Translations under genes and position numbers: made by a program
The notes under the pieces: generated by a model
Seen by the model: only the letters and a program-made list of their open reading frames with translations
What the model was told of the DNA's origin: nothing
Databases searched by the model: none
In this document: piece by piece, positions 13,661 to 45,971 of the stretch
How positions within the stretch are numbered: position 1 is the stretch's first letter
How the letters are laid out: each line of letters starts with the position of its first letter
Assembly: GCA_913009875.1 (NCBI GenBank)
Contig: CAJVYS010000010.1
Span: 1-46,560 of the forward strand
From: an uncultured Gammaproteobacteria bacterium
GTDB lineage: Bacteria > Pseudomonadota > Gammaproteobacteria > SZUA-152
Reading direction: 5' to 3'
Length of the DNA: 46,560 nucleotides

Positions 13661-16069
<2,409 letters not shown>

Positions 16070-16176: not shown

Positions 16177-17505
16177 ATGCAAAAGGTGGTGAATCAAACA
16201 AATCTGAATCTCGGTGCAGTATCTTTGGATGCCCGTCATGTCAGTGTGCAGGTCGATGCCGGGCGCGCCATTGTTTCCCTTTTGCTGGCCGGATACACAG
16301 GTGAGGTGGCGGTTCAGCTGTGGGACGGTAATCTGGCTGCAGGCAACGAGGATGCAGCTTGCCGGCTGGTGTTCCATCACCCGGGCGCACTGCGTGACTT
16401 GATCTTGCGCCGCAATCTCGTTCGCCTGACCGAGTTTTATCTGGCGGGGCGGATCGATGTCATCGGTGACATGGAAGGTCTGTTCAGTCTTGCGCCGCAT
16501 CTGTCGGGATTGAAGCTGTCGTGGCGGGATAAGTGGCAATTAATCTCTCTCGCATTGCGTCTGCCGGCCAGCCGGATGCACTTGGCCCGGGAAGGTCTGG
16601 AGCATGATAATTCCCGCGCCACCATCGCTCATCATTATGACGTGGGAAATGCGTTTTACCAGCTGTGGCTGGATCCGGAAATGGTCTATTCCTGCGCCTA
16701 TTTTCTGCACCGGGATGAGTCACTGGCCGAGGCCCAACAGAACAAGCTGGACTATATCTGCCGCAAGCTGCGCCTGTCACAGGGGCAGACACTGCTGGAT
16801 ATCGGCTGCGGCTGGGGCGCACTGGCCATTTGGGCGGCACGTCATTATGGTGTCCAGGTGCATGGCATCACCCTCAGTGAGGCCCAGTACCGTTTCGCCC
16901 GCCAGCGGGTCGAGGAAGAGGGTTTATCCGATCAGGTCACCATTGAGCTGCGTGACTACCGTGATCTGCCGCAGGATGTCCAGTATGACCGCGTGGTCAG
17001 TGTCGGCATGTTCGAGCATATCGGGATAAAGAATTTCCCCACCTACTTCTCCCTGGTGAAGCGCGTGCTCAAACCCGGTGGTCTGTTCCTCAACCACGGC
17101 ATATCCAACGAGGCCGGCTGGCGACGCACCCAACTGACCCGTTTCATCAATCGCTATATTTTTCCCGACGGTGAGCTGACCTCCATCAGCAGGGTATCGC
17201 AGGCGATGGAAGGGGCGGGCTTTGAAGTGGTCGATGTTGAGGGACTGCGCAGACACTACGCGCTAACGTTACGCCACTGGGTCAAGGCCCTGGTCGAGAA
17301 AAAAGAACAGGCGGCCAAGCTTTCCAGCGAGGAAGCCTATCGCCTCTGGAAGCTTTACATGGCCGGCTGTGCCTACTTCTTTGATGCCGGTGAGATCAAT
17401 GTCTATCAGGTACTGGCCGGGCATGCCGGCCAACCACTCGATATGCCACTGACGCGCGATGATCTGTATTGCACCACTGTCAGTGTAATGAAGCGGGGAG
17501 AGTGA
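16177..17505 (+). CDS. cyclopropane-fatty-acyl-phospholipid synthase family methyltransferase
   Basis: A 442-residue enzyme that adds a methylene group from S-adenosylmethionine to unsaturated acyl chains of membrane phospholipids, a change made under stress. It has the N-terminal lipid-binding domain of the family (about residues 1-130), the segment HYDVGNAFYQLWLD, VYSCAYF, the SAM-binding motif LLDIGCGWGALAIWA and MFEHIG, as in Cfa. Longer than E. coli Cfa by about 60 residues. AGGAGGA is the ribosome site. The MerR-like promoter suggests control by metal stress. An HD-GYP gene follows after 36 bp. Confidence 0.85.
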   Translation: MQKVVNQTNLNLGAVSLDARHVSVQVDAGRAIVSLLLAGYTGEVAVQLWDGNLAAGNEDAACRLVFHHPGALRDLILRRNLVRLTEFYLAGRIDVIGDMEGLFSLAPHLSGLKLSWRDKWQLISLALRLPASRMHLAREGLEHDNSRATIAHHYDVGNAFYQLWLDPEMVYSCAYFLHRDESLAEAQQNKLDYICRKLRLSQGQTLLDIGCGWGALAIWAARHYGVQVHGITLSEAQYRFARQRVEEEGLSDQVTIELRDYRDLPQDVQYDRVVSVGMFEHIGIKNFPTYFSLVKRVLKPGGLFLNHGISNEAGWRRTQLTRFINRYIFPDGELTSISRVSQAMEGAGFEVVDVEGLRRHYALTLRHWVKALVEKKEQAAKLSSEEAYRLWKLYMAGCAYFFDAGEINVYQVLAGHAGQPLDMPLTRDDLYCTTVSVMKRGE

Positions 17506-22902: not shown

Positions 22903-22940
22903 GAATGCTGTTAGCGAATCAATAAGCCAAGTTGAACAAT

Positions 22941-23705
22941 ATGCCAACAGAACAGCGCAAAAATTGTAAGCCATCCCGTGGTATTTGGCGTCGTTTCCTT
23001 GATGGAAAACCAGAATATCTGGTGCGTCATTATTGGTGGGCTTATCTCTGGCCCTGGGGTGTCTGGTTTTTTGATCATCAGCCGATTATCAACGCCATTC
23101 TATTTGGGCAGTACAAGAAGCTCTCTCATCGGGCGCTACGCGACTGTATGAAAAACCGGCCGCAGGGGCGGTTTTTACAGCTCACCTGCGCTTATGGAAG
23201 TTTGACGCCCACTATGCTCAGAGCGATGGATGATGAACTCTATCTCATGGATGTGGCTGACATACAGTTAACTGAAACGCGTAATAAACTGGTGGATGCA
23301 GAGAAAGAGCGCCTGCTTTGTGCACGAATGAATGCGGAGTTTCTTGCCTATGGAGATGATCTGTTTGCCACTGTTTTAATCTTTTTTTTACTGCATGAAC
23401 TACCGCCTGACGCGCGTGAGCGCAGCCTTGGAGAAGCCATTCGGGTGTTGCGGCCCGGTGGTCGTTTTGTCATCACCGAGTATGGGGCTTGTCCTAAAAA
23501 ACATCTGCTGTGGCGGTTCCGGCTCACGCGTATTGTATTGCAGCGGTTGGAGCCATTTTTAGACAGTTTTTGGCATGTAGATTTGACCGCGATGTTGGAC
23601 AAACATGCACGAAGGCAGGGCAAGGTGATTCGACAAGTGGATGAATTCCACTGTTTTTCTGGTTTCTATCGTGTTTGTACTTTTGAATTGTTGGAGCAAA
23701 GCTAA
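22941..23705 (+). CDS. RquA-like class I methyltransferase
   Basis: A 254-residue SAM-dependent methyltransferase. Its order of motifs follows RquA, which makes rhodoquinone from ubiquinone: WWAYLWPWGVWFFDHQPI and ILFGQYKKL at the N-terminus, LQLTCAYGSLTP in place of the usual GxGxG, MDVADIQLTETRNKL, FFLLHELPPDAR, LRPGGRFVITEY and LEPFLDSFW. The start may be the ATG at 22941 or a TTG at 22932; no strong ribosome site helps. Its stop overlaps the next ATG (TAATG), so it is coupled to a membrane cytochrome. If it does make rhodoquinone, the host could respire fumarate or otherwise use a low-potential quinone. RquA-like relatives without that role exist, so the function is a proposal. Confidence 0.6.
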   Translation: MPTEQRKNCKPSRGIWRRFLDGKPEYLVRHYWWAYLWPWGVWFFDHQPIINAILFGQYKKLSHRALRDCMKNRPQGRFLQLTCAYGSLTPTMLRAMDDELYLMDVADIQLTETRNKLVDAEKERLLCARMNAEFLAYGDDLFATVLIFFLLHELPPDARERSLGEAIRVLRPGGRFVITEYGACPKKHLLWRFRLTRIVLQRLEPFLDSFWHVDLTAMLDKHARRQGKVIRQVDEFHCFSGFYRVCTFELLEQS

Positions 23706-26254: not shown

Positions 26255-26267
26255 GGACAAAGAGACC

Positions 26268-30026: not shown

Positions 30027-30225
30027 TATGGCGCTCGGCTTTATCTCCTGAGTCGCCCTGCCTCCCCCATCCATGGGGTCGTCATATTTAGTCTGTATTT
30101 GTTCGTTCTGATTGAACAAAAGCGCAGGAATAATTGTTCTATTTTGAGCTTTTGTGATTGAAGGATGGGCGAAGACGGGCTGAAGAGGAGATGCAAGATC
30201 GGGAAGTTATTTCGTGCACGTTCCT
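30000..30225. repeat. 226-bp element with 19-bp inverted terminal repeats (MITE-like)
   Basis: AGGAACGTGCACGAAATAA (30000-30018) is repeated in exact inverse at 30207-30225. The left end lies in the last codons of the malate dehydrogenase gene; the right end stops 21 bp before the citrate synthase ATG. Together with the AGTAGGAG ribosome site the element fills the 220-bp gap. Inside there is no gene. Related ends occur at 18380 and 40104, so it belongs to a dispersed family. Confidence 0.7.
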
Positions 30226-30246
30226 TAGCCAGTAGGAGAATTCAAC

Positions 30247-31542
30247 ATGCAACAAAAAACCACTCTCACCCTGACAGACCCCGCCAGCGGCAAGACGCTG
30301 GAACTGCCCGTGCTGACGGGGACGGAAGGCCCACCCGTCATCCCCATCGGCAACCTCTACCGTGAACTGGGTTACTTCACCTTTGATCCCGGTTTTCTGG
30401 CCACCGCCAGCTGCCGCAGCGCGGTGACCTTTATCGATGGCGAAGAGGGGGTATTGCTCTATCGCGGCTACCCCATCGAACAGCTGGCGGAGCGCAGCAC
30501 CTTTCTCGAAGTCGCCTATCTGCTGATGTACGGTGAACTGCCGTCTGCGCAGCAGCGTAATGATTTCACGGCCATGATTGCCCATCACACGATCATCAAC
30601 GAAAGCCTGAAGCGCTTTTACGATGGCTTCTATCACGATGCGCACCCCATGGCGATCATGGTCGGGGTGGTGGGTTCTTTGTCGGCCTTTTATCACGACT
30701 CCACCGATATCCATGACCCCCGCCACCGTGAGGTCGCCGCCCATCGCATGATCGCCAAGATGCCCACCATCGCGGCGGCCTGTTACAAACACTCCGTTGG
30801 CGAACCACTGGTCTACCCCAAAAATGATCTCAGTTACGCCGGCAATCTGCTGCATATGATGTTTTCCGTGCCCAGCGAGGAGTACCCGATCGACCCGGTG
30901 GCGGAACAGGCTCTGGATCTTATTTTTATGTTGCATGCCGATCATGAGCAAAATGCCAGTACCTCCACCGTGCGTCTGGCGGGCAGTTCCGGTGCCAATC
31001 CTTTTGCCTGCATTGCTTCCGGCATCGCGGCGTTATGGGGGCCGGCCCATGGGGGCGCCAATGAGGCCGCATTGAATATGCTGGAGGAGATTGGCGATGT
31101 GAAAAACGTGCCTGCCTATCTCGCCAAAGCCAAGGATAAAAACGATCCTTTTCGTTTGATGGGTTTCGGTCATCGCGTGTATAAAAACTATGACCCGCGG
31201 GCACGGGTGATACGGACGGCCTGTCACGAGGTATTGGCGAAACTGGGTGACCCTGATGATCCTCTGTTCGAGCTGGCGTTGGCGCTTGAAGAGGCGGCGC
31301 TCAAGGATGACTACTTTGTCGAACGCAAGCTTTATCCCAACGTCGATTTCTACTCGGGTCTTATCTACAAGGCACTGGGTATTCCCACCAATATGTTCAC
31401 GGTGATGTTTGCCATCGCCCGCACGGCCGGCTGGGTTGCGCAGTGGATGGAGATGATCGCCGAACCGCAGCAGCGCATCGGTCGGCCCCGGCAGCTGTAT
31501 GTCGGACCGGCGCGTCGGGATTACCCACCGAGGGTTGAATGA
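30247..31542 (+). CDS. gltA: citrate synthase
   Basis: A 431-residue type II citrate synthase joining acetyl-CoA and oxaloacetate. Catalytic residues are visible in [11 protein letters not shown] (His), [14 protein letters not shown] (His and substrate Arg) and YPNVDFYSG (Asp). The N-terminal extension of the hexameric type is present. Its position after ferredoxin oxidoreductase and malate dehydrogenase groups the enzymes of acetyl-CoA entry to citrate, or of the reverse route. Start ATG with AGGAG 8 bases before. Confidence 0.93.
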
Positions 31543-31809: not shown

Positions 31810-32952
31810 ATGACAAAAAATAATATGCACCCCGAAGTCCCCGTGGAAATCGCCGGTGCGGGTCCGGCTGGTTTGGCGGCGGCAATCACCCTGGCTCACG
31901 CGGGGCGCAAGGTGATTGTGCACGAAACATACAAAGAGGTAGGCCATCGCTTTGGCGGCGATTTTCAGGGGCTGGAAAACTGGACCACTAGGGAAAATGT
32001 GTTGTCGGTGTTTAAATCCATGGGATTGACGACGGATTTTAATGCCAGACCCTGCCGCGACGGCACCGTTTTCAATGCTGCAGGTAAACCTTATGAGATC
32101 AAAAGTGACGAACCGCTTTTTTATCTGATTGAACGTGGCCCCGGCCCTGACACCCTCGACAGTGCCCTGCTCAGACAGGCTCAATCCCTCGGTGTAGAGG
32201 TGCACTTCAACAGCCGTCTGCGCCACATGGCGGGGGAGGGTATTCTCGCGGCGGGCCCACGCGCTGCCGATGCCATTGCCGTGGGCTACCATTTTGAAAC
32301 TGATATGGCCGATGGTTACTGGGCTATTTGTGACAATGAGTTGGCCCCTCAGGGTTACGCCTATCTGCTGGTGATGAACGGCAGGGGCACGGTCAAGAGC
32401 TGTATGTTTTCCGGGTTTAAACAGGAGAAACTTTATGTGCAGCGAACAGTGGAGGCGTTTCAGCGACTCGTTGGTCTGGAGATGAAAAACCCTCAGCCCC
32501 ATGGTGGCAGCGGCAATTTTCGTATCCCGCAAAGTGCCTGCAGCGGCCCGCATCCTCTGGTGGGAGAGCAGGCCGGCTTTCAGGATACGCTGTGGGGATT
32601 CGGCATGCGCCTGGCGATCTCGTCCGGTGTGCTGGCGGCACAGAGTCTGTTGAATGGTGAAAACTACGACAGGCTCTGGCAGCGGGAGTTGAAACCTCAG
32701 ATGGAGACCTCCGTCGTCAATCGTGCGCTCTATAGCCTGGTGGGCAACAGCGGTTATCGCTGGTTTTTACGGCAGGTCGCCAAACCGAATCTACGCGAAT
32801 TACTGCGGCGGCAATATCAGCCATCGTTGATAAAACAACTACTGCGTCCTTGGGCCAAGCGGCGTTACCAGAGTCGGCGTAAGGATCTTACTTGCGACCA
32901 TATTGACTGTCACTGTATCTGGTGCCGGGGGGAGTGTTGTGTGCATGATTAA
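31810..32952 (+). CDS. FAD-dependent oxidoreductase with Cys-rich C-terminus
   Basis: A 380-residue flavoprotein related to the geranylgeranyl-reductase/monooxygenase fold. The FAD site VEIAGAGPAGLAAAITLAHAG is near the N-terminus, and a second conserved stretch GPHPLVGEQAGFQDTLWGFG holds the flavin. The last 20 residues are unusual: six cysteines and two histidines in TCDHIDCHCIWCRGECC, likely a metal or Fe-S site. It overlaps the cusC gene of pump set 2 by 8 bp, so it is the first gene of that operon. The substrate is unknown; a lipid or quinone reduction, or metal-coupled redox role, is possible. Confidence 0.65.
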   Translation: MTKNNMHPEVPVEIAGAGPAGLAAAITLAHAGRKVIVHETYKEVGHRFGGDFQGLENWTTRENVLSVFKSMGLTTDFNARPCRDGTVFNAAGKPYEIKSDEPLFYLIERGPGPDTLDSALLRQAQSLGVEVHFNSRLRHMAGEGILAAGPRAADAIAVGYHFETDMADGYWAICDNELAPQGYAYLLVMNGRGTVKSCMFSGFKQEKLYVQRTVEAFQRLVGLEMKNPQPHGGSGNFRIPQSACSGPHPLVGEQAGFQDTLWGFGMRLAISSGVLAAQSLLNGENYDRLWQRELKPQMETSVVNRALYSLVGNSGYRWFLRQVAKPNLRELLRRQYQPSLIKQLLRPWAKRRYQSRRKDLTCDHIDCHCIWCRGECCVHD

Positions 32953-34243
32953 GGGTTTGCAAAAGTGGCAATTTGCCGCCGTCATGTTGTTATTTTCCAG
33001 TGCTCCGCTCCATGCCTCTGCGCTCAATGGAGAGAAGCCCTTGTCGATAGCAGCTGCGGTGGCCGAGGTGGTGACGGCGAACCCGGGTCTGGCGGCGATC
33101 AGTGCCCGAGCCGAGGCCTTGGCGGCATTGCCGGATCAGTTGGGTACACTGCCCGACCCTCAGTTATCTTTCAAATTAATCAATCTGCCGATTGATAGTT
33201 TTTCTTTCTCTCAGGAGGGGATGACCCAAACCCAAGTCGGTTTCAGTCAGATGTTGCCCTTTCCCGGCAAGCTCGGATTGCGTCAAGAAGCTGCGGAGGC
33301 AATGGCCACAGCCGCCGGCTTTGGCGTGGAGGAATTGCGCCTGAAATTGATTCGGGATGTAAAAATGGTCTGGTGGAACCTCTTTTTCCTCGACCGGGCG
33401 CTGGAGGTTGTTGAAAACAACCAAATGCTGATGCGCCAGTTTATCGAAGTGGCTGAGAGCAAATACAGTGTTGGCAAGGGCTTGCAGCAGGACGTGCTGT
33501 TGGCGCAGCTGGAGCTTTCCAAATTGTTCGACCATCAGGTCGATCTTGAGGGGCAGCGGCGTAATGAATCGATTCGTCTCAGCACCCTGCTTGATCGTCC
33601 CACGACAGCGTTGTTAGTGCTGCCCAATGAAGTGGCGGAGGATTTTCCAACGTTACGTGATGAGGCGCAGCTGATGGTACTGGCTGCCGAGGCTCGTCCT
33701 CTGCTGGCTGCACGTGAACAACGGCTGGAAGCGGCGCGGCTGCGGGTCGAACTGGCGGAGAAAAACTATTACCCCGACTTTAGCGTTGGCGCGGCATACG
33801 GTCTGCGTTTGGGCGATAACCCCAACGGCTCCTCACGTGATGATTTGGTCTCGCTGATGTTTGGCATGAGTCTGCCCATCTATACCGCTACCCGGCAGGA
33901 TCGGGCCGTGGATCAACGCAATGCCGAACGCATGGGCCAGCGTTATGCCCTGGCGGATGACCACAATCGGGTCGAGGCCACCATTGGTCGGGCTTTATCT
34001 GACTATCAGCGTGGTCGAGAAAAGGTCGATCTCTTCAAGACAGGCATCATTCCCCAAGCCCAGCAAACTGTTGCTTCCATGTTGGCCGGTTATCAAGTCA
34101 ATAAAGTCGATTTTCTCAACGTAATGCGTGCTCAGATCACGCTCTACAATTACGAAACTCAATACTGGAATGCCTTCAGCAGGGCTCGTCAGGCAATTGC
34201 CCGGCTGGCTGCGGCGGTGGGTGAGGAGGCTATCTATGAGTAA
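32945..34243 (+). CDS. cusC: CusC-like outer-membrane channel (set 2)
   Basis: A 432-residue TolC-family protein, second copy of the channel at 5498. It shares ANPGLAAISARAEALAALP, INLPIDSFSFSQEGMTQ, LPFPGKLGLRQ and SVGKGLQQDVLLAQLELSK almost motif for motif. A signal peptide covers residues 1-25 (ending SSAPLHAS). The ATG at 32945 follows GGGGGGAG; the longer frame to 32903 would precede the signal peptide. The stop overlaps cusB by 8 bp, the same junction as in set 1. Confidence 0.85.
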   Translation: MIKGLQKWQFAAVMLLFSSAPLHASALNGEKPLSIAAAVAEVVTANPGLAAISARAEALAALPDQLGTLPDPQLSFKLINLPIDSFSFSQEGMTQTQVGFSQMLPFPGKLGLRQEAAEAMATAAGFGVEELRLKLIRDVKMVWWNLFFLDRALEVVENNQMLMRQFIEVAESKYSVGKGLQQDVLLAQLELSKLFDHQVDLEGQRRNESIRLSTLLDRPTTALLVLPNEVAEDFPTLRDEAQLMVLAAEARPLLAAREQRLEAARLRVELAEKNYYPDFSVGAAYGLRLGDNPNGSSRDDLVSLMFGMSLPIYTATRQDRAVDQRNAERMGQRYALADDHNRVEATIGRALSDYQRGREKVDLFKTGIIPQAQQTVASMLAGYQVNKVDFLNVMRAQITLYNYETQYWNAFSRARQAIARLAAAVGEEAIYE

Positions 34244-35621
34244 CAAATTGAATTTGATGGCGGTTGGTGCGGCGCTGGTGGTGGGGCTGGCTGGCGGTTA
34301 TCTGCTTTTTGGGGGTAGCGAGCCACCGCCGAGTGGTACGGGAGAGAGCCAGGCCGTCGCAGAGCGCAAGCCGCTTTTCTATCGCAATGCCATGAATCCC
34401 ACCGTGACCTCGCCGATACCGGCCAAAGACAGTATGGGTATGGATTACATCGCCGTTTATGCCGACGACGAGGGGGATAGCGACGCCCCTGCCGGTACGG
34501 TCAAAATTGATGCCGTCACGGTGCAAAATATCGGCGTGCGTACCGAGCGTGCGACCGAGGGGCCGCTATCGCGCAGCGTGCGGGCGGTGGGGCGTGTTGA
34601 TTTTGATGAGACCCTGTTGGCGCGTATCTATCCCAAGATCGACGGCTGGGTTGAAACATTGATGGTGGATAAAACCGGCGCCCAGGTGAAAAAAGGCGAT
34701 GTGCTGTTGAGCATCTATTCACCACAGATTGTCGCCAGTCAGGAAGAGTATCTGCTGGCGCTCAAAAACCGCAAGACGCTGGGTAACAGCTCCTTGGAAG
34801 ATATTCGCCGGGGTGCTGAAAGTTTGGTGAAATCGGCGCGCCTGCGTTTGCAACTACTCGATTTGCCACAACACCAGATTAAAGCCCTGGAGCAGAGTGG
34901 CGAGATCAATCGGGCCACGCATATTCACTCACCTTTTAATGGGGTGGTGATCAAACTGGGTGTGCAGGCGGGGCAGTATGTGACGCCGAAGACCCAGCTT
35001 TATCAGATTGCGGATCTCACCAAGGTATGGGTCTATGCCGAGGTGTTTGAATTTGAACTGCCGTGGATTAAGGAGGGTGATTCCGCACAGATCACCGTGG
35101 AAGGTGTGCCGGGGCGCGAGTTTCACGGTCACATTAGCTACATCTATCCCTATCTCGACCGCAAGACACGTACCGCCAAGGTGCGGCTGGAATTTGATAA
35201 CAGCGATGGTGCGCTGCGGCCGGAGATGTTCGCCAATGTCGTCTTGAAGAGTGCACGCAGTGAGCCGGCGGTACTGGTGCCTGCCCAGGCGATTGTGCGT
35301 TCCGGTACTCGCAAGCAGGTGTTTGTCGTGCGCGAGCCGGGCAAATTTGAGCCGCGTGAAGTGGTGGTGGGCATCACCAGCGAAGGTAAGACTCAGATTC
35401 TTGAAGGCGTTGAAGCGGGTGAAGAGGTGGTGGTCTCCGCTCAGTTCCTTATTGATTCGGAGTCTTCATTGCGTGAGGCGACAGCAAAGATGATGCGTGG
35501 CGCGCCAGGTGCTGCTACCGATGATGCTGAAATGAAGATGGACATGCCTCTGCCCGATGCGCCGGGAGCGCCCATGGATATGGGTGAGATGAATATGAAC
35601 CCTGAGAGCGCGCAACCATGA
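34236..35621 (+). CDS. cusB: CusB-like periplasmic adaptor (set 2)
   Basis: A 461-residue membrane-fusion protein from the ATG at 34236 (MSNKLNLMAVGAALVVGLAG, membrane anchor). It has a single heavy-metal-binding domain (FYRNAMNPTVTSPIPAKDSM), where set 1 has two, then the same barrel and hairpin segments (KIDGWVETL, SIYSPQIVASQEEYLL, KVWVYAEVFEFELPW) and a Met-rich tail (MKMDMPLPD, MDMGEMNMN). It overlaps cusC and cusA. Confidence 0.88.
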   Translation: MSNKLNLMAVGAALVVGLAGGYLLFGGSEPPPSGTGESQAVAERKPLFYRNAMNPTVTSPIPAKDSMGMDYIAVYADDEGDSDAPAGTVKIDAVTVQNIGVRTERATEGPLSRSVRAVGRVDFDETLLARIYPKIDGWVETLMVDKTGAQVKKGDVLLSIYSPQIVASQEEYLLALKNRKTLGNSSLEDIRRGAESLVKSARLRLQLLDLPQHQIKALEQSGEINRATHIHSPFNGVVIKLGVQAGQYVTPKTQLYQIADLTKVWVYAEVFEFELPWIKEGDSAQITVEGVPGREFHGHISYIYPYLDRKTRTAKVRLEFDNSDGALRPEMFANVVLKSARSEPAVLVPAQAIVRSGTRKQVFVVREPGKFEPREVVVGITSEGKTQILEGVEAGEEVVVSAQFLIDSESSLREATAKMMRGAPGAATDDAEMKMDMPLPDAPGAPMDMGEMNMNPESAQP

Positions 35622-38600
35622 TCGAACGCATTATCGAGCTCTCGATCCGCAAAAAATTCCTGGTGATGATCGCCACCTTTTTAATAGTGGTGGCCGGTCT
35701 ATGGGCAGTAAAAACTACGCCGCTGGATGCCATTCCCGACCTCTCCGATGTGCAAGTGATTGTCTTCACCGAGTACCCGGGACAGGCCCCTCAGGTGGTG
35801 GAGGATCAGGTCACCTATCCGCTCACCACTGCCATGCTGTCGGTGCCCAAGGCGAGTGTTGTACGGGGCTACTCATTTTTTGGTCTCTCCTTTGTCTACA
35901 TCATCTTCGAAGATGGTACTGATATGTACTGGGCGCGCTCGCGGGTGCTGGAGGCGCTCAACTATGTGGGGAACAGGCTGCCCGAAGGTACCAACCCAGC
36001 ACTAGGTCCCGATGCCACGGGTGTGGGTTGGATCTACGAGTATGCGTTGGTGGATAGAACCGGCCGCCACGACCTCTCGCAACTGCGCTCGATTCAGGAC
36101 TGGTATCTGCGCTATCCACTGCAGACCGTACCGGGCGTAGCCGAAGTGGCGGCGCTGGGCGGCTTTGTCAAGCAATATCAGGTGGAAGTGGACCCCAATG
36201 CGTTGGCGTCCTACAACATTCCGCTATCGAAGGTGAAACACGCCATTAAAACCTCCAACAACGACGTTGGCGGCAAGCTGATCGAGATGTCGGAGACCGA
36301 GTACATGGTGCGTGGCCGCGGCTATATTCGCAGCGTCGAGGATCTCAACGACATTCCCGTGGGTGCGGATGCGAACGGCACGCCGATCCGCCTCGCAGAT
36401 GTGGCCCATGTCCATATCGGGCCCGAGTTGCGGCGCGGACTGGCGGAGTTGGACGGTGAGGGCGAAGTGGTGGGCGGTATCGTCATTATGCGTTTTGGTG
36501 AAAATGCCCTGGCCACTATCGAAGGGGTGCGGGCAAAACTGGCGGAGTTGAGCAAGGGGCTGCCTGAAGGGGTGGAGATTGTGACCACCTACGACCGAGG
36601 CGCGCTGATCGAACGGGCGGTGGATAACCTGAGTGAGAAGCTGATCGAGGAATTTTTTGTCGTCAGCATCGTCTGCATTATTTTTTTACTACACGCCCGC
36701 TCGGCACTGGTGGCGATTGTTGCCTTGCCGGTCGGGATTTTACTGGCCTTTTTAGCGATGCGTTGGCAGGGACTCAACGCCAACATCATGTCTTTAGGCG
36801 GCATCGCCATTACCATTGGTGCAATGGTGGATGGGGCGATTGTGATGATCGAAAATGCCCACAAACATCTGGAGCGGGCGGGTAATCGCAAGGGGGCGGC
36901 GCTCACCACCACCGAACGCTGGGCCGCCACCACCGCTGCCGCCAAAGAGGTGGGACCGGCGCTGTTCTTCTCGCTGCTGATTATCACCGCCTCCTATCTG
37001 GCGATCTTTAGCCTGCAAGGGCAGGAGGGCCGCCTCTTCACACCGCTGGCTTTTACCAGTACCTACTCGATGGCTGCCGCCGCTTTGCTGGCGGTGACAT
37101 TGGTGCCGTTGCTGATGGGCTGGTTTATTCGCGGGAAAATCATGCCCGAGGCGAAAAATCCGGTCAATCGGCTGCTCCATTTTCTCCATACGCCGGCACT
37201 GAAACTGGCGATGGGGTGGCGCAAAGTAACGCTGATTGGTGCGCTGGTACTGCTGGCGGTGACCTGGTATCCGCTGTCGCAACTGGGCAGCGAGTTTATG
37301 CCGCCGCTGGACGAAGGGGATGTGCTCTACATGCCCACCACCTTCCCCGGCATCTCTATTACCAAGGCGAAGGAGCTATTGCAGCAGACCGACAAAATAC
37401 TTAAAACCTTCCCCGAGGCGGAGACGGTGTTTGGCAAGGTGGGTCGTTCCGAGAGCGCCACCGACCCGGCATCACTGTCGATGATGGAGACCATCGTCCG
37501 TCTTAAACCGCGTGAGGAGTGGCCTGATCCCGATAAAAAGATGCAGACCCTGATGTCGGAAATGGACAAGGCGATTCGTTTTCCCGGTTTGGCCAACGCC
37601 TGGACCATGCCGATCAAAACACGTATCGACATGCTCTCCACCGGTATCAAAACGCCCATCGGCATCAAGGTGATCGGCCCTGATCTTCAAGTGCTGGCCC
37701 GTCTCTCTGAGGAGATCGAGAAAGCCATGAAGACCATCCCCGACACCCTGTCTGCCTTTGGTGATCGTGCCGTCGGTGGTTATTTTATCGATTTCGACAT
37801 CGACCGCAAAAAGGCGGCCCGCTACGGCCTGACGGTGGGCGCCGTGCAGGACGCCATCACCTCGGCGGTGGGGGGCATGAACGTCACCTATACCGTGGAG
37901 GGGCTGGAGCGTTACCCGGTCAACCTGCGTTATCCGCGTGAGCTGCGTGATTCGCCAGAGAGCCTGGCGCGCATGCTGATTCCCACCCCTTCGGGTGCAC
38001 AGATTCCGCTGGCGCAGGTGGCGGAGATTGTCGAGCGGCGCGGCGCTCCTGTGATCAAGAGTGAAAATGCCACCCCCAACGCCTGGCTCTATATCGATAT
38101 CAAGGGTTCCGATATCGGCGGTTATGTGGCCCTGGCCAAAGAGGTGCTGGCTGACCAGGTGGAGATTCCCCCGGGTTACACCGTCGTCTGGTCCGGCCAG
38201 TTTGAGTATATGGAACGCGCGGCCAAACGACTTCAGGTGGTAGTGCCCGCCACCTTGCTGCTCATCTTCCTGCTGCTCTACTTCAATTTCGGCAACATCA
38301 GCGCGCCACTGGTGGTGTTGCTGTCGGTTCCCTTCGCTCTGGTGGGCGGCATCTGGCTGATCTACTGGTACGGGTTCAACATGTCGGTGGCGGTGGCTGT
38401 CGGTTTTATCGCACTTGCGGGGGTGGCTGCGGAGATCGGTGTGTTGGTACTCACCTTTATCGATCAGGAGGTGGCGCGGCGGCGTCAGGAGAAAGGTGCG
38501 GCTGAGCGAGATCGCTTTGCCACGCTAACCGCAGCTGAGATTATGGAGGGCGTGCGAGTAGGTACCTCTGAACGGGTACGCCCCATCGTCATGACGGCAG

Positions 38601-38818
38601 TTGCGGTGATTGCCGGTCTGCTGCCCATCATGTTTGGCGGTGGAACCGGCTCTGAAGTGATGCAACGGATTGCCGCACCGATGGTGGGTGGCATGGTGAC
38701 AACCACCTTGTTATCGCTGGTGGTACTGCCGGTGATTTATGGCTGGGTGTTACAGGCCAAAGAGAGCATTCATCAGCGCAAAAGAGAGTCGGAAGAAAAC
38801 GATTTGGCAAACGAGTAA
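35618..38818 (+). CDS. cusA: CusA-like Cu(I)/Ag(I) RND transporter (set 2)
   Basis: A 1066-residue HME-type RND pump, paralogue of the set 1 protein. The methionine triad is complete: M572 (LYMPTTFPG), M622 (SLSMMET) and M672 (RIDMLSTG), and the proton-relay helix GAMVDGAIVMIENAHK is unchanged. Starts with a 4-bp ATGA overlap on cusB. A PII-like gene follows after 16 bp. Compared with set 1 it lacks a His/Met-rich periplasmic gene downstream. Confidence 0.92.
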   Translation: MIERIIELSIRKKFLVMIATFLIVVAGLWAVKTTPLDAIPDLSDVQVIVFTEYPGQAPQVVEDQVTYPLTTAMLSVPKASVVRGYSFFGLSFVYIIFEDGTDMYWARSRVLEALNYVGNRLPEGTNPALGPDATGVGWIYEYALVDRTGRHDLSQLRSIQDWYLRYPLQTVPGVAEVAALGGFVKQYQVEVDPNALASYNIPLSKVKHAIKTSNNDVGGKLIEMSETEYMVRGRGYIRSVEDLNDIPVGADANGTPIRLADVAHVHIGPELRRGLAELDGEGEVVGGIVIMRFGENALATIEGVRAKLAELSKGLPEGVEIVTTYDRGALIERAVDNLSEKLIEEFFVVSIVCIIFLLHARSALVAIVALPVGILLAFLAMRWQGLNANIMSLGGIAITIGAMVDGAIVMIENAHKHLERAGNRKGAALTTTERWAATTAAAKEVGPALFFSLLIITASYLAIFSLQGQEGRLFTPLAFTSTYSMAAAALLAVTLVPLLMGWFIRGKIMPEAKNPVNRLLHFLHTPALKLAMGWRKVTLIGALVLLAVTWYPLSQLGSEFMPPLDEGDVLYMPTTFPGISITKAKELLQQTDKILKTFPEAETVFGKVGRSESATDPASLSMMETIVRLKPREEWPDPDKKMQTLMSEMDKAIRFPGLANAWTMPIKTRIDMLSTGIKTPIGIKVIGPDLQVLARLSEEIEKAMKTIPDTLSAFGDRAVGGYFIDFDIDRKKAARYGLTVGAVQDAITSAVGGMNVTYTVEGLERYPVNLRYPRELRDSPESLARMLIPTPSGAQIPLAQVAEIVERRGAPVIKSENATPNAWLYIDIKGSDIGGYVALAKEVLADQVEIPPGYTVVWSGQFEYMERAAKRLQVVVPATLLLIFLLLYFNFGNISAPLVVLLSVPFALVGGIWLIYWYGFNMSVAVAVGFIALAGVAAEIGVLVLTFIDQEVARRRQEKGAAERDRFATLTAAEIMEGVRVGTSERVRPIVMTAVAVIAGLLPIMFGGGTGSEVMQRIAAPMVGGMVTTTLLSLVVLPVIYGWVLQAKESIHQRKRESEENDLANE

Positions 38819-39270: not shown

Positions 39271-40062
39271 GTGAAGCTGTTTTCCAGAAAACGACGAGTA
39301 ATCATACTCCATACATTGGTTGGAGCCTTGATCGGTATACTCTTGTTGCACCCGGTGAGCAAAATTGTTTATTGGTTTGAATTCGGGCATGAGCTTGGTG
39401 TTGAGGGTGAAAGTTTGTGGAGTTTTCTTCTCAGCCGATTTGAATCGACCTTTGTTCTCGAGATGGTGCCGATGAGCCTGATCTTTGCTCTCATCGGCGG
39501 CAGTATCGGTTTGGCATTTGCCATCTACCATCTGGCGCTCGTCAGACAGCAGCGGACGGTGCACTATCTGGAAAAGGAGCTGGCCGAGGATCTGCCGGCC
39601 CTGATAAAAGGTGGCGAGGGTGAGCATCTGGAATTCAAGTCATCAGTACGCTGGGATTTTCGTCAGGGAAAAATCAATAAAGCACTCGAAGCGGTTATTG
39701 CAAAAACGCTGGTTGGCTTTATGAATCATCGAGGTGGCAGCCTGCTGATTGGTGTGGCCGATGATGGTGAGGTTGTCGGTCTGGAGCATGATTATAAAAC
39801 GCTTAAAAGCAAGGACAGGGATGGCTTCGAACTCTGTATCACGGATATTGTAACAAGCCGGATAGGTGCGGATATGTGCTCTTTTATCCATTGTGTGTTT
39901 TACGAAATAGAGGGAAAGGATGTCTGTCGAGTCATCGTCGAGTCTGTCATTGGGCCTGTTTATTTGAAGGATGGAAATACATCCAGATATTTTTTGCGTA
40001 CCGGAAATGGCACGCGTGAACTTGATGCACGTGAAGCGATGGCACATGTCACACGTCAGTGA
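39271..40062 (+). CDS. membrane-anchored AlbA_2/Schlafen-domain protein
   Basis: A 263-residue protein. Two membrane helices at the N-terminus (TLVGALIGILLLHPV; VPMSLIFALIGGSIGLAFAIY) are followed by a cytoplasmic AlbA_2 domain: EHLEFKSSVRWDF, KTLVGFMNHRGGSLLIGVADDGEVVGL and RYFLRTGNGTREL. AlbA_2/Schlafen domains occur in transcription regulators and in nucleases of some defence systems. The start is GTG at 39271. It stands alone, followed by the palindrome at 40104. Function unclear. Confidence 0.7.
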   Translation: MKLFSRKRRVIILHTLVGALIGILLLHPVSKIVYWFEFGHELGVEGESLWSFLLSRFESTFVLEMVPMSLIFALIGGSIGLAFAIYHLALVRQQRTVHYLEKELAEDLPALIKGGEGEHLEFKSSVRWDFRQGKINKALEAVIAKTLVGFMNHRGGSLLIGVADDGEVVGLEHDYKTLKSKDRDGFELCITDIVTSRIGADMCSFIHCVFYEIEGKDVCRVIVESVIGPVYLKDGNTSRYFLRTGNGTRELDAREAMAHVTRQ

Positions 40063-40127: not shown

Positions 40128-40135
40128 GATTGATA

Positions 40136-40816
40136 ATGATGTTAAGGCATGACATGGCGAAACGAGGTGCTGATTTGAAAAACGACCATGAAAATCCCGT
40201 GCAAAAAGAGTACGCCCACTTGGCACAGGAATATGATGATAAGTGGAGTTTTTATGTTGAGGCAACGCTTCAGGAAACACTAAAAAGAGTTGACCTCCAT
40301 TCGGGAGAGCGCTTGCTTGATATTGGCTGTGGAACAGGCGCATTACTGTCGGCGATAGAAAGAAGGTATCCCGATAATATTTTGGCAGGTGTTGACCCTA
40401 CCCGGGAGATGCTCGATATCGCTGGCAAGCGATTGTCGAAAAAGGTTCATATAGAGCAAAGCTGGGCGGAAAGACTTCCATTTGAAGCCGAGACGTTTGA
40501 TGTTATCGTTTTTTGCAGCATGTTCCACTATATTCGCGAACCGATTGTTGCCCTCAAAGAAGGTGTGCGTGTCTTGAAACCAACAGGAAGGGTGGTGATC
40601 ACCGATTGGTGTGATGATTATATCACCTGTCAAATATGTGACCTGTTCCTTCGCGTTTTTAATGAGGCGCATTTCAAAACATATAAAAAAAGAGAGTGTT
40701 ATCAGATGCTGCTTTCATCAGGGTTCGATGATATAAAAATTGATAGTTATAGGGTCAATTGGTTTTGGGGGATGATGACAGCAACAGCGTGCAAAAAAAC
40801 AACCGTAAAAAGGTAA
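40136..40816 (+). CDS. class I SAM-dependent methyltransferase
   Basis: A 226-residue protein of the UbiE/Methyltransf_11 type: LLDIGCGTGALLSAIERRYP (SAM site), GVDPTREML, SWAERLPFEAETFDVIVFCSMFHYI and LKPTGRVVITDW. The substrate is unknown. Start: AAGG 7 bases before the ATG at 40136; ATG at 40154 (MAKRGADLKN) is another choice. The gene is clearly AT-richer than its neighbours, consistent with transfer. A truncated YHS frame begins directly after its stop. Confidence 0.8.
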   Translation: MMLRHDMAKRGADLKNDHENPVQKEYAHLAQEYDDKWSFYVEATLQETLKRVDLHSGERLLDIGCGTGALLSAIERRYPDNILAGVDPTREMLDIAGKRLSKKVHIEQSWAERLPFEAETFDVIVFCSMFHYIREPIVALKEGVRVLKPTGRVVITDWCDDYITCQICDLFLRVFNEAHFKTYKKRECYQMLLSSGFDDIKIDSYRVNWFWGMMTATACKKTTVKR

Positions 40817-40939
40817 ATGGCTATGATCCATGATCCCGTCTGTGTAATGGAACTTGATCCGCGCAACGCAAAAGCAGTAGCTGAATACAAACACCCCTCC
40901 TGTTTTGTCACGGCCCTTCACTGGCGGGTTAGTCCATGA
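40817..40939 (+). pseudogene. truncated YHS-domain gene
   Basis: A 40-codon frame starting immediately after the methyltransferase stop. MIHDPVCVMELDPRNAKAVA and EYK are the first half of a YHS metal-binding domain (DPVCGM...), then the sequence turns into HPSCFVTALHWRVSP and stops, so the Cys-rich second half (YYFCSxxC) is gone. It ends in an ATGA overlap with the patatin gene, so it may survive as a leader for translation of that gene. Full YHS domains are at 13661 and 18603. Confidence 0.6.
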
Positions 40940-41862
40940 GTAAAGCAATGAAGGTTGGTGTGGTGTTGAGTTCCGGTGGCGGGCGCGGGGTGTTCGCTCA
41001 TACCGGGTTTTTACTTGCATTGGAACAGCTGGGTGTCGAGATCGGCGCAATTGCCGGTTGCAGTGCAGGTGCCTTGGTGGGCGGGGTTTATGCCAGTGGT
41101 ACCGACCTGCACCAATGGGCGGAGCGTATTGCCAAGGTAGAAACACGCGAGTACTGGACCCCCGATTCATGGTCACGTTTCATCTGGCAGATGGCGGTGC
41201 GCAAGGGGCGTGGTTATACCGGCATTTCGGAGACTAAAGCGGCCATTGAGTTTGTCCGTAACAACCTCAGCGCGCAGACCTTCGAGACCTGCCCCATTCC
41301 TTTTTACTCTCTTGCCACCAACCTGACTCAGGGCAGCAAAACTCTCTTTTCGTCGGGCGAGCTGGCTCCACGTATCATGGCCAGTGCTGCCATGCCGGTG
41401 CTGTACCGGCCAGTGGAGATCGATGGTGAACTCTTCAGCGACGGTGCAACCATTGAGCTGGCTTCTACCGAGGCGATCTGTTGCCGGCATAAACTTGATG
41501 CGTTGATCGTTCACCACACATCGGTTTGCCGTGAAGGCCCGGAAGGACTGGCCCATGCGTTGCAGCAACCGTGGTCATTGGTGGAAATTCTCTACCTGTT
41601 GCTCTATCGCAAGCGCCCCTGGTATCTGAGCGATGAAGCGCTTGCCTTCCGCCACTGTCGTTGTGGTTGTGGTGCTCCTGTAGTGGTGATAGAGCCCGAT
41701 CTACCTGAAATTACCTGGCCGCTCAGCAAGGGCGGGGCAGAGGTGCAGATGGCTGCCAAGCAGCAGGTTGAAACGCTGCTGGAGCCATACCTGCCCATCA
41801 CGGGCAGCATGCCCCACAAATTGCGCACCCTGTTTACCCCATGGCGACATTGCGATCCTTAG
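40936..41862 (+). CDS. patatin-like phospholipase family protein
   Basis: A 308-residue serine hydrolase of the bacterial patatin (RssA-like) group. Oxyanion loop SSGGGRGVFAHTG, nucleophile S43 in GCSAG and Asp169 in DGA form the complete Ser-Asp dyad. No signal peptide. Probable phospholipid or acylglycerol hydrolase. C-terminal half contains the Cys-rich segment CRCGCGAP, unusual for the family. It begins a compact run of four genes. Confidence 0.82.
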   Translation: MSKAMKVGVVLSSGGGRGVFAHTGFLLALEQLGVEIGAIAGCSAGALVGGVYASGTDLHQWAERIAKVETREYWTPDSWSRFIWQMAVRKGRGYTGISETKAAIEFVRNNLSAQTFETCPIPFYSLATNLTQGSKTLFSSGELAPRIMASAAMPVLYRPVEIDGELFSDGATIELASTEAICCRHKLDALIVHHTSVCREGPEGLAHALQQPWSLVEILYLLLYRKRPWYLSDEALAFRHCRCGCGAPVVVIEPDLPEITWPLSKGGAEVQMAAKQQVETLLEPYLPITGSMPHKLRTLFTPWRHCDP

Positions 41863-41875
41863 GAGGTTATAGAAC

Positions 41876-42274
41876 ATGATTAAAACTGTTTTTTTTGTGT
41901 TTCTGCTAGCTGGCAGCGTGATGTTGCTGGGTTGTGATATGCCGGACTCGGAACAGGTTCAGCAACGGCAACATCTGCCAGGCTCTGATTTTGTCGCCGA
42001 TCCGCAGCGCGGTGACGCCCTGTTTCATGCTCACTGTGCACGTTGCCACGGTGGGAAAGGAACCGGCACCGACCTGGGGCCACCTTTGGTGCATCAGGTT
42101 TACCGCCCTGGCCACCATGCGGATCTGACGTTTCACTGGGCGGTAAAAGACGGTGTCAAACAGCACCATTGGCACTTTGGTGATATGCCGCCGATTGCCG
42201 ATGTTTCACCACAACAGGTCGGGCATATTATCGCCTACGTGCGCCGCGAACAGCGTAAGGTGGATATTCGCTAG
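41876..42274 (+). CDS. periplasmic monoheme cytochrome c lipoprotein
   Basis: A 132-residue protein with a lipoprotein signal ending in LLGC (Cys20 lipidated). The class I cytochrome has CARCH (54-58), GTDLGPPL and GDMPPI, whose Met is the likely sixth ligand. Many His residues lie around KQHHWHFGDM. AGGAGG before the ATG. The stop TAG is directly followed by the ATG of the next gene. Confidence 0.82.
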   Translation: MIKTVFFVFLLAGSVMLLGCDMPDSEQVQQRQHLPGSDFVADPQRGDALFHAHCARCHGGKGTGTDLGPPLVHQVYRPGHHADLTFHWAVKDGVKQHHWHFGDMPPIADVSPQQVGHIIAYVRREQRKVDIR

Positions 42275-43846
42275 ATGGATGAGATGGAAAAAGGGATTCA
42301 GCACCTGCTGGACGAAAGAGAGAGCAGGGTTATGCTTTCCGACTGGGTGCTGCACGGTCTGGAGTTCATGGCCACCATTTTTGTTTTTGCCGTTGGCATT
42401 GCGGTACTTGTGGTGGTTGTTTTGTTCATTGTCGATGTCACCCAGACCCGCAATGCCATTCGGCGTAATTATCCGGTACTGGGTCACTTTCGCTATCTGT
42501 TCGGCCGGCTTGGGGAATTTTTTCGGCAATATTTTTTTGCCATGGATCGCGAAGAAATGCCTTTCAACCGGGCCGAACGGGAGTGGGTTGAACGTGCCGC
42601 CAGGGGTGAGGAAAGTACCGTTGCCTTCGGTTCAACAAAAAATCTGAATGTTGAGGGGACGCCGATTTTTCTGAGCTGTCCTTTTCCCACCCTGACGGAG
42701 GACACCGTTGAGGCAGTACCGTTGGAGATCGGCCCATATTGCCGTCAGCCATACCTGGCGCCTTCAATCTTCAATATATCGGGGATGAGTTTTGGCGCAC
42801 TCTCCGTGCCTGCGGTACAGGCTCTTTCCCACGGTGCAAAGTTGGCGGGATGTTGGTTGAATACCGGCGAGGGCGGCCTCTCTCCCTATCATCTGGAAGG
42901 AGGCTGTGACTTGGTTTTTCAGATCGGCACTGCCAAGTACGGTGTACGCAATCAGGACGGAGTTCTGAGTGACGAGAAACTGCACAGTATCGCTTCACGA
43001 CCAGAAGTTAAATTATTTGAGATCAAGCTCAGCCAGGGCGCCAAGCCAGGCAAGGGTGGAATTCTTCCCGGTGCCAAAGTCACCCGTGAAGTGGCCGAGG
43101 TACGCGGCATCAAAATGGGCGAGGACTCCATCTCACCCAACCGTCATCCAGAGATAGACTCCGTGGAAACGTTACTCGATGTTATCGCCCATGTTAGAAC
43201 CGTTACCGGTAAGCCAGTGGGCATTAAGACGGTGATAGGGAACCGTGAGTGGCTGGATCGACTGTGCGAAGAGATTGTTGTGCGAGGGTTGGAAAGCGCA
43301 CCTGATTTTATAACCGTGGATGGCGGGGATGGGGGCAGCGGTGCCGCGCCCATGGCATTGATGGACAATGTCGGACTGCCACTGCGAGAAGCGCTGCCCA
43401 TGGTGGCCGATATCCTGGTCAAATACCGGCTCAAGCATCGGGTGCGTCTGATTGCCTCGGGAAAACTGATTACCCCCGCCAATGTTGCCTGGGCTCTGTG
43501 CGCCGGGGCGGACTATATCAATGCTTCACGTGGTTTTATGTTTGCGCTGGGCTGTATTCAGGCACTCAAGTGCAACAGAAATATCTGTCCGACGGGGGTC
43601 ACCACCCACAACCCTCGGCTTCAGGCCGGCCTTGATCCGCAGGTTAAATCGGTCCGGGTGGCCAGCTATTGCCGGAGCATTGTGCACGAGGTGGAGATGA
43701 TAGCCCACTCCTGCGGTACAGCGGAACCACGCGCCCTGCGGCGTCGCCATGTACGGATTGTGGGCGGTGATGGTCTGTCACGGTCAATGGATGAGCTTTA
43801 TCCACCTGCTGAGTGCTCACACGAAGGGGACAAAGATGGATTCTGA
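42275..43846 (+). CDS. membrane-anchored FMN-binding glutamate synthase-like protein
   Basis: A 523-residue protein with one N-terminal helix (FMATIFVFAVGIAVLVVVVLFIV) and a glutamate-synthase central/FMN domain: ISGMSFGALSVPAVQAL, NTGEGGLSPYH, SQGAKPGKGGILPG, DGGDGGSGAAP, and the [3Fe-4S] pattern C-x5-C-x4-C in GCIQALKCNRNICPTG. It lacks the glutaminase and GltD parts, so it is not a full glutamate synthase. Such stand-alone proteins have no settled function. A membrane redox role with the neighbouring cytochrome is inference. It overlaps the next gene by 11 bp. Confidence 0.82.
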   Translation: MDEMEKGIQHLLDERESRVMLSDWVLHGLEFMATIFVFAVGIAVLVVVVLFIVDVTQTRNAIRRNYPVLGHFRYLFGRLGEFFRQYFFAMDREEMPFNRAEREWVERAARGEESTVAFGSTKNLNVEGTPIFLSCPFPTLTEDTVEAVPLEIGPYCRQPYLAPSIFNISGMSFGALSVPAVQALSHGAKLAGCWLNTGEGGLSPYHLEGGCDLVFQIGTAKYGVRNQDGVLSDEKLHSIASRPEVKLFEIKLSQGAKPGKGGILPGAKVTREVAEVRGIKMGEDSISPNRHPEIDSVETLLDVIAHVRTVTGKPVGIKTVIGNREWLDRLCEEIVVRGLESAPDFITVDGGDGGSGAAPMALMDNVGLPLREALPMVADILVKYRLKHRVRLIASGKLITPANVAWALCAGADYINASRGFMFALGCIQALKCNRNICPTGVTTHNPRLQAGLDPQVKSVRVASYCRSIVHEVEMIAHSCGTAEPRALRRRHVRIVGGDGLSRSMDELYPPAECSHEGDKDGF

Positions 43847-44549
43847 TCAATATATTTGGTTACTCTGGTCGAGTGCGTTTTTAATTCCCTGGGGAGTGGT
43901 TTATTGGTGGTTTCCTGCACAACGAAAAGCGATGTTGTGGGCAAGCCTGTTCACTACGCCGTTTGGCCTAAGCGAACCTTTGTTTGTGCCGGAATACTGG
44001 ATGCCGCCGAGTCTGTTTGATTTGGCTGAAAATACCGGGTTTGATATCGAAAGCCTGATCTTCTGCTTTGGCATTGGTGGAATTGGTTCTGTATTTTATA
44101 ACCTTCTGAGCAAAAAAATCCCCCAAACGGTAGGGGCCAGTGTACGCCATCACTCTTTGCATCGGCATCATTACAAGGCGCTGTCAGCACCGTTTGTTGT
44201 TTTTATAGCGCTTTACTTCTTTCCCTGGAATCCAATTTACCCTTCCATCATTGCCATGTTTGCGGGTGCGATGGCAACGATGCTTTGCCGACCGGATCTG
44301 AAGCGAAAAACATGGATTGGCGGTCTGCTCTTTTTGGCTTATTACGCTATCTTCCTGGCGGGGCTGGAATGGAGTGCGCCAGGTTATATCGACCGGGTTT
44401 GGAATATGGAGGTGCTGTCAGGTATCACCGTTTGGTTTATGCCCATTGAAGAGCTGCTGTTTGCCATTGGTTTTGGCATGTACTGGTCGGGGGTGTATGA
44501 GCACTTTACCTGGCGAAAATTGGCAGCTGCTGACCAGGATGCCGGATGA
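43836..44549 (+). CDS. lycopene-cyclase-domain-like integral membrane protein
   Basis: A 237-residue protein with about seven helices, from the ATG at 43836 (AAGGGGA ribosome site). YIWLLWSSAFLIPWGVVYWW, WFMPIEELLFAIGFGMYWSGVYEH and the PxEE motif resemble the lycopene cyclase (CrtYcd/CarR) fold. No other carotenoid gene is in the window, so cyclase activity is not supported. Last gene of the patatin-cytochrome-FMN run. After it, 44550-44660 shows no other gene. Confidence 0.6.
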   Translation: MDSDQYIWLLWSSAFLIPWGVVYWWFPAQRKAMLWASLFTTPFGLSEPLFVPEYWMPPSLFDLAENTGFDIESLIFCFGIGGIGSVFYNLLSKKIPQTVGASVRHHSLHRHHYKALSAPFVVFIALYFFPWNPIYPSIIAMFAGAMATMLCRPDLKRKTWIGGLLFLAYYAIFLAGLEWSAPGYIDRVWNMEVLSGITVWFMPIEELLFAIGFGMYWSGVYEHFTWRKLAAADQDAG

Positions 44550-44660: not shown

Positions 44661-45971
44661 ATGAAAGATCATTCGCAGCACAACAAATCATCACAGTACA
44701 AAGAAAACAGCCTGACATTGGTGGGTGCTGTATCGATGGGCACCGGAGTCATGATCGGTGCGGGCATCCTTGCTCTGACAGGACAGATTGCTGAACTTGC
44801 TGGCTCACTATTCCCTCTCGCTTTTCTTGCAGCGGCAGTGGTTACCGCATTTAGTGCATATTCCTATGTGAAATTATCCAATGCCTATCCTTCTGCGGGA
44901 GGCATTGCCATGTTTCTGAAAAAAGCCTATGGAAAGGGGGTGATGACGGCTGCCGGCGCACTACTCATGTATTTTTCGATGGTCATCAATCAGAGCCTGG
45001 TTGCAAAAACCTTTGGCACTTATAGCATACAATTGTTCGATGTTGATTCCGGCAGCTGGATAGTATCTGCGTTGGCAGTTGGGCTGCTCATTTTTGCCTT
45101 TCTACTCAATGTCTCTGGTAATCGTGCGATTGGCCTTTTTTCCCTGCTGATGGCCTTTATCAAAATTGGCGGTATTGTCATATTTGCCGTTGGTGGTTTG
45201 TGGATTGCCGATTTTTCGTTGGAAAGTAGCCCGGTCGGTGTGGCAGATACATCTGTAACAGGGTTCATAGCGGCGATGGCCCTGGCTATTCTGGCTTATA
45301 AGGGATTTACCACGATCACAAATAGTGGCTCCGAAATTGTTGATCCACATCGTAATGTGGGGCGTGCGATAATAATTTCGATTGCGATTTGTGTGGTTAT
45401 TTATCTCCTGGTCGCACTGGCTGTAGCGGGCAACCTCAGTTTGCCTGAAATCATCGCAGCAAAAGATTTTGCCCTTGCAGAGGCAGCGCGCCCGGCGCTT
45501 GGTGATTACGGTTTATGGTTCACCGTTGCATTAGCGATTGTCGCCACGGCCTCAGGCGTTATCGCGAGTATATTTGCGGTGTCACGCATGCTGGCAATGT
45601 TGACCGACATGAAGCTGGTTCCACATCGTCATTTCGGCATGCCGGGTAATATCCAGAATCATACGCTGGTTTACACCATTGTAATCGCAATTCTTCTGAC
45701 CCTGTTTTTCGACTTGAGCCGTATCGCATCGCTGGGTGCCATTTTCTATTTATTGATGGATATTGCGGTGCATTGGGGTGTTTTGCGCCACCTCCGTAAG
45801 GAAATAAAGGCCAACGCAGTTATTCTGATGACGGCAATTGCTTTTGATGTCATCGTGCTTGGTGCATTTTTAATGGTGAAAGCATCCACCGATATGATGG
45901 TTATCTACGCGGCAGTGGTAGGGATTCTGTTTGTATTTATTGGCGAGAGATTATTTTTACGTCAAAAATAA
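44661..45971 (+). CDS. APC-family amino acid permease
   Basis: A 436-residue integral membrane protein with about 12 helices. VSMGTGVMIGAGILALTGQIAEL is the signature of the first helix of the amino acid-polyamine-organocation family; YKGFTTITNSGSEI is the conserved helix-6 region. The substrate cannot be told from sequence. Weak ribosome site; the GC content is lower than that of the copper genes. Confidence 0.8.
   Translation: MKDHSQHNKSSQYKENSLTLVGAVSMGTGVMIGAGILALTGQIAELAGSLFPLAFLAAAVVTAFSAYSYVKLSNAYPSAGGIAMFLKKAYGKGVMTAAGALLMYFSMVINQSLVAKTFGTYSIQLFDVDSGSWIVSALAVGLLIFAFLLNVSGNRAIGLFSLLMAFIKIGGIVIFAVGGLWIADFSLESSPVGVADTSVTGFIAAMALAILAYKGFTTITNSGSEIVDPHRNVGRAIIISIAICVVIYLLVALAVAGNLSLPEIIAAKDFALAEAARPALGDYGLWFTVALAIVATASGVIASIFAVSRMLAMLTDMKLVPHRHFGMPGNIQNHTLVYTIVIAILLTLFFDLSRIASLGAIFYLLMDIAVHWGVLRHLRKEIKANAVILMTAIAFDVIVLGAFLMVKASTDMMVIYAAVVGILFVFIGERLFLRQK

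Follow-up and report, generated by a model that had tools for sequence, protein, structure and literature searches.

A patatin-like and a lycopene-cyclase-like gene as a probable recurring pair in a fast-shuffling copper-resistance island of an uncultured gammaproteobacterium

A stretch of 46,560 nucleotides from an uncultured gammaproteobacterium (GenBank assembly GCA_913009875.1, contig CAJVYS010000010.1; hereafter the window) carries four intact, closely packed genes on the forward strand. They encode a patatin-like acyl hydrolase (PAT), a monohaem c-type cytochrome lipoprotein (CYT), a protein with the flavin mononucleotide domain of glutamate synthase (FMN) and a polytopic lycopene-cyclase-like protein (LCY). 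A first-pass annotation, made from the letters of the window, had joined these genes and an upstream YHS piece into a compact operon and offered a lipid- or isoprenoid-related membrane redox system as one reading of it. The four open reading frames, their strand and their tight junctions were borne out: 13 bp separate PAT and CYT, the ATG of FMN abuts the TAG stop of CYT, and FMN and LCY share 11 bp. An upstream in-frame ATG at 43749 is a less likely start for LCY, because homologues start at or near 43836. The family assignments also held, the Pfam matches of all four proteins exceeding gathering scores (Table 1). Ratios of non-synonymous to synonymous substitution rates, determined against relatives, were 0.05–0.12 for PAT, 0.14–0.18 for CYT, 0.12 for FMN and 0.04–0.07 for LCY, indicating that the four genes are kept by purifying selection. 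Scanning for promoters and terminators was uninformative, yielding the same counts as in shuffled sequence.

Among the genomes surveyed, the complete order PAT-CYT-FMN-LCY was found only in this genome (G000) and in the congener G003, where PAT has one in-frame TAA. Other members of the genus showed PAT-CYT-LCY followed by the APC permease gene and no FMN (G001), PAT-LCY (G006), PAT fragments with LCY and the permease gene (G005), or PAT-CYT at a contig end (G002); as the relatives are mostly draft genomes, a single stop or a contig end could be an artefact. A search for FMN homologues (E ≤ 1e-40) gave none in G001, G002, G004, G005 and G006, i.e. in 5 of 7 congeners, most of which retain PAT or LCY. 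At 80 FMN loci on genome contigs, PAT, CYT and LCY were all absent. The FMN copies at L003, L004 and L007 lie in metal/stress islands and group with the FMN of the window in a clade of seven (support 100/99); at L004, an intact YHS-SLOG gene lies 75 bp upstream of the FMN gene. FMN thus appears as an optional insertion, probably derived from islands of a related kind, in which an FMN gene may be directly preceded by a YHS-SLOG gene.

These observations bear on a dedicated membrane redox system, in which CYT would exchange electrons with the FMN/3Fe-4S protein, with PAT and LCY handling the lipid or isoprenoid on which that protein acts. Such a system would be in keeping with the tight junctions and overlap, with purifying selection on all four genes and with the identical order in G003. 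It is nevertheless very improbable, given the distribution of FMN described above and the in-frame stop in the patatin gene of G003; moreover, general topology would place the FMN domain on the cytoplasmic side and CYT in the periplasm.

The YHS piece, a 40-codon open reading frame that reads DPVCVMELDPRNAKAVAEYKHPSCF, was compared with the intact relative L004:4923-5678. The latter starts with DPVCLMELDPRKAKAVAEYKG and ends with EHYQHPSCFCHDTLPAG, and between them holds a complete YHS domain as well as a Rossmann domain of SLOG cluster 4. In the window copy an internal deletion fuses head to tail, after which it is out of frame. Decay has taken different forms in G002, G003 and G222: G003 retains YHS and lost SLOG, G002 retains another scrap. 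In a further relative, G224, the copy is absent. The piece is therefore a deletion-derived pseudogene and not an operon part, and its interpretation as a small metal-binding protein was ruled out. The limits set for the operon (40817-44549) did not hold either, as the same-strand run extends beyond them, with genes for a methyltransferase, an AlbA_2 protein, a PII-like protein and CusCBA before and for an APC permease and the CopA multicopper oxidase after. The gene-order survey rules out a conserved five-gene operon: the set is probably one arrangement of a fast-shuffling island. The case also counsels caution, in that a tight cluster in one genome need not be a machine: of the genes here, FMN is seemingly an optional insertion and the YHS piece a pseudogene.

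The refuting condition set in the first-pass annotation, that the genes occur together in this contig alone and apart elsewhere, had a mixed outcome: PAT and LCY recur together in copper/stress islands, often with a c-type lipoprotein, and FMN is separate almost everywhere. G224, which belongs to another family (f75), shows the order GDH-RquA-like-P23705-KorCAB-GltB_s-GGR-PII-CBS-MT-PAT-LCY, its genes being 75–92% identical to those of the window. There, CYT is reduced to its first 23 codons, which contain a stop and are fused to the 3' end of nhaA (L113:9577-9816), a deletion scar. In the sister genus g6 the order is Cu-ATPase-ICMT-DUF5676-(cyclopropane fatty-acid synthase)-RquA-like-PAT-LCY-P23705-HDGYP-(CYT)-GGR, and outside the class, G404 (family f207) has PAT-cytochrome c lipoprotein-cytochrome b561-Cu-ATPase-ICMT-LCY. 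LCY is rare phylum-wide (4 of 398 in a sample). Plasmid copies of LCY were found beside Cus efflux and arsenic (ars) genes in Methylophaga thalassica, next to ICMT on a plasmid of Croceicoccus, and on Polaromonas pPNAP02, where an RND efflux operon and genes for phosphoketolase and acetate kinase lie nearby; the plasmid survey for PAT returned distant patatins only.

Co-occurrence was assessed in 369 gammaproteobacterial genomes. Of these, 29 have LCY, 20 have PAT (E ≤ 1e-40) and 7 have both, as against 1.6 expected, a count that ignores phylogeny and takes each genome as independent. In all 7 genomes holding both, the two genes lay on one contig within 3 kb. The commonest neighbours at 33 LCY and 30 PAT loci were the genes for a Cu-ATPase (15 and 12 loci, respectively), an ICMT/PEMT methyltransferase (14 and 10), DUF5676 (12 and 14), MerR (11 and 7), the geranylgeranyl-reductase-like GGR (10 and 13) and P23705 (9 and 9), none of which occurred in 20 random stretches of LCY-bearing genomes. 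Neighbourhood of PAT and LCY, and less regularly of PAT and CYT, recurs in other genomes beyond chance, and adjacency to FMN does not. We consider it likely that the gene cluster belongs, as its variable 3' part, to a large island for copper/heavy-metal and low-oxygen stress that moves horizontally, in which PAT and LCY would form a recurring membrane-acting pair and CYT appears to be their frequent companion. Besides the phylogeny-blind counting, several points weigh against this interpretation. Many PAT loci are without LCY and many LCY loci without PAT; shared neighbourhood is shared island membership, not a shared pathway; and the low-oxygen role is deduced from the types of enzyme encoded (KorABC, phosphoketolase, acetate kinase, RquA-like). 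Pure hitch-hiking, whereby genes without any shared function merely travel on the same shuffling island, would explain the constant rearrangement, scars and pseudogenes of the stretch. It seems unlikely, however, because PAT-LCY adjacency is kept from family to family and, outside the class, in f207, with low substitution ratios.

An alignment of 27 sequences showed conservation in PAT of the nucleophile S43 (GCSAG) and of D169 (DGA), as well as of C182, C183, C241 and C245. With a Patatin score of 85.8 bits against a gathering score of 27.7, and with the GxSxG nucleophile and the Asp of the Ser/Asp dyad in place, PAT is classed as a patatin-like phospholipase for which lipid acyl hydrolase activity is predicted. 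Neither a membrane segment nor a signal was predicted for it. PAT shares its catalytic core with the patatin-like phospholipase RssA (NF007623; 1.3e-23 over residues 3-174), but reaches only 83.7 bits against a cut-off of 272, and its conserved CC and C-x3-C cysteines are absent from the RssA-like paralogue L172. A second PAT-type paralogue, 57% identical, is encoded in the same genome (L174:15874-18941), adjoining a cyclopropane fatty-acid synthase gene and near genes for transketolase and other sugar enzymes; such an island is thus present in this genome a second time. CYT has an LLGC lipobox and a single CXXCH haem site.

FMN shares with the glutamate synthase FMN/3Fe-4S domain (PF01645; 'FMN-binding glutamate synthase family protein') both the FMN domain and a C-x5-C-x4-C motif. 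The earlier 3Fe-4S claim rests on this motif, read directly in the sequence, whose spacing is that of the glutamate-synthase [3Fe-4S] cluster. Its only relatives by sequence in the PDB are glutamate synthase large chains, from which it differs in lacking an amidotransferase domain and in having a membrane anchor, hydropathy indicating one strong N-terminal segment at residues 35-53. Against the GltB equivalog profile it scored 125.9 bits (cut-off 1047), matching only profile positions 861-1157 of 1490.

The second half of LCY matches the CarR/CrtYc-d-type lycopene cyclase profile (PF18916) over positions 1-92 of 92, with 53.8 bits against a gathering score of 27. Alignment of 25 sequences showed that PxEE is conserved in this half, whereas the diverged first half has FDIES at the corresponding place; HRxH and CRPDLK are conserved too. 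No PDB relative was found by sequence, and a single-sequence AlphaFold model (mean pLDDT 44.6) was too poor for use. The profile match and PxEE would fit a true lycopene cyclase, through which the island would give carotenoid-based protection, and some SQS_PSY protein was present in 27 of 30 LCY genomes. By contrast, no SQS_PSY protein was found in the LCY genomes G027, G087 and G104, the last a single contig and 99% complete, and several of the SQS_PSY matches elsewhere were adjacent pairs, as expected of hopanoid HpnC/HpnD. Furthermore, the window holds no crt gene. The absence of phytoene/squalene synthase from three LCY genomes implies that lycopene is probably not the general substrate of LCY, and a role as carotenoid cyclase is unlikely; a carotenoid locus was ruled out by this absence together with the lack of crt neighbours.

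The remaining features of the window are listed in Table 1.

Table 1. Features of the window, with coordinates, strand and supporting matches.
Feature	Coordinates	Strand	Match or remark
PAT, patatin-like acyl hydrolase	40936..41862	+	Pfam PF01734, 5.6e-24
CYT, monohaem c lipoprotein	41876..42274	+	Pfam PF13442 (Cytochrome_CBB3), 1.3e-10
FMN, glutamate-synthase FMN domain	42275..43846	+	Pfam PF01645 (Glu_synthase), 2.5e-85
LCY, polytopic lycopene-cyclase-like protein	43836..44549	+	Pfam PF18916 (Lycopene_cyc), 3e-14
YHS+SLOG (LDcluster4) pseudogene remnant	40818..40937	+	Comparison with intact L004:4923-5678
MT, class I methyltransferase	40130..40816	+	Pfam PF08241, 1.3e-21; upstream neighbour of PAT in G002, G003, G222, G224, G326
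APC-type amino-acid permease	44661..45971	+	Pfam PF13520, 2.7e-32; follows LCY also in G001, G005
GGR, FAD oxidoreductase distantly like geranylgeranyl reductases	31810..32952	+	TIGR02032, 5.7e-12, below cut-off; recurrent island neighbour of PAT and LCY
MT2, RquA-like methyltransferase	22932..23705	+	NF038261, 9.8e-50, 169.3 bits (cut-off 175)
Cyclopropane fatty-acid synthase-like protein	16177..17505	+	Pfam CMAS, 2.9e-104; near PAT in g6, G216, G080
Cu-type P-type ATPase with YHS and HMBD domains	13661..16069	+	TIGR01511, 1.5e-180; commonest LCY neighbour
P23705, unannotated membrane protein	23705-24484		One CXXCH haem site
KorCAB to citrate synthase block	24474-31542		
First CusCBA-type efflux operon	5498-11615		
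Second CusCBA-type efflux operon	32903-38818		
Membrane-anchored AlbA_2 (Schlafen-type) domain protein	39271-40062		Upstream of MT-PAT
Adapter sequence at contig end	46481-46560		

A Cu-ATPase, a MerR-family regulator, Cus efflux and a multicopper oxidase are all encoded on this stretch, which by gene content is a putative copper-resistance island with predicted copper-inducible expression and resistance. Genes of the kinds known from such islands (Cu P-type ATPase, MerR-family regulator, CusCBA, CopA) occur in the window and at most LCY or PAT loci; what sets it apart from known islands is an unusual complement of genes for membrane lipids or isoprenoids and for central metabolism. A search of open-licence PMC text yielded no account of LCY or of a patatin in such islands, and none of a locus with phosphoketolase that is activated at low oxygen. 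The lipid or isoprenoid theme proposed at first was right in outline, other genes of this kind and quinone genes lying around, and the unit was wrong, joint action of its five parts as a redox system being unsupported.

MT2 matches the profile of RquA, the enzyme of rhodoquinone biosynthesis, over its full length. The window copy scores at the edge of the curated cut-off, slightly below it, within a lower-scoring mode separate from canonical RquA; homologues scored 168.7, 174.2 and 178.4 bits, the last one, from g6, being above it. In g6 the RquA-like gene lies directly upstream of PAT-LCY. The lower-scoring mode co-occurred with LCY (8 genomes, 2.0 expected) and with PAT (7, 1.4 expected), whereas canonical RquA showed no such co-occurrence with either. 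RquA has been described as rare and patchy, the 2017 figure for gammaproteobacteria being 2 of 2493 genomes (PMC5953543). The lower-scoring subfamily is common in gammaproteobacteria.

The best reading of the membrane genes of the island is that they would remodel lipids or isoprenoids, PAT and LCY possibly taking part in membrane-lipid or polyprenyl-lipid remodelling under metal stress. PAT has an intact Ser/Asp acyl-hydrolase core and conserved cysteines; acting in the cytoplasm, it could cleave acyl chains off membrane lipids, its activity perhaps being adjusted through the cysteines by metal or redox state. LCY may bind and modify a membrane polyprenyl or polyene lipid, probably other than lycopene. 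Linked to them in the same islands are a GGR-like flavoprotein, a cyclopropane fatty-acid synthase, a cardiolipin-synthase-like PLD and PEMT/ICMT-type and RquA-like methyltransferases. Jointly, these enzymes might re-tailor membrane lipids or quinones and so maintain a tight, respiring membrane during copper stress and at low oxygen, with CYT and FMN as auxiliary redox proteins that would not be required. A more specific and rather speculative possibility is that mobile copper/low-oxygen islands carry a pathway tailoring quinones or isoprenoid tails, which would yield a modified respiratory quinone under metal stress: the RquA-like enzyme would alter the quinone head group, the GGR-like flavoprotein saturate and LCY cyclise the polyprenyl tail, and the cysteine-bearing patatin remodel acyl chains. 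The survey places the lycopene-cyclase-like family and the cysteine-bearing patatin subfamily in copper-stress islands of more than one bacterial class and not in carotenoid loci, and offers a testable connection between metal resistance and the remodelling of membrane lipids or quinones.

Additional observations were made on other parts of the window. The GGR-like oxidoreductase has a C-terminal cysteine-rich tail (CDHIDCHCIWCRGECC), possibly metal-binding. Genes for the 2-oxoacid:ferredoxin oxidoreductase KorC-KorA-KorB, a GltD-like flavoprotein, malate dehydrogenase and citrate synthase form one block within the island, conserved in G002 and G003 and largely in G224. The two CusCBA-type operons are separate; compared with G224 and G002, the second is an insertion between GGR and PII. 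The AlbA_2 gene is kept in G002, G003 and G006. At the contig end, Illumina adapter sequence (AGATCGGAAGAGCGTCGTG...GGTGGTCGCCGTACCATTAAAA) is fused to the truncated CopA gene, and translated adapter was also found at both ends of another contig of the same genome (C70, locus L174).

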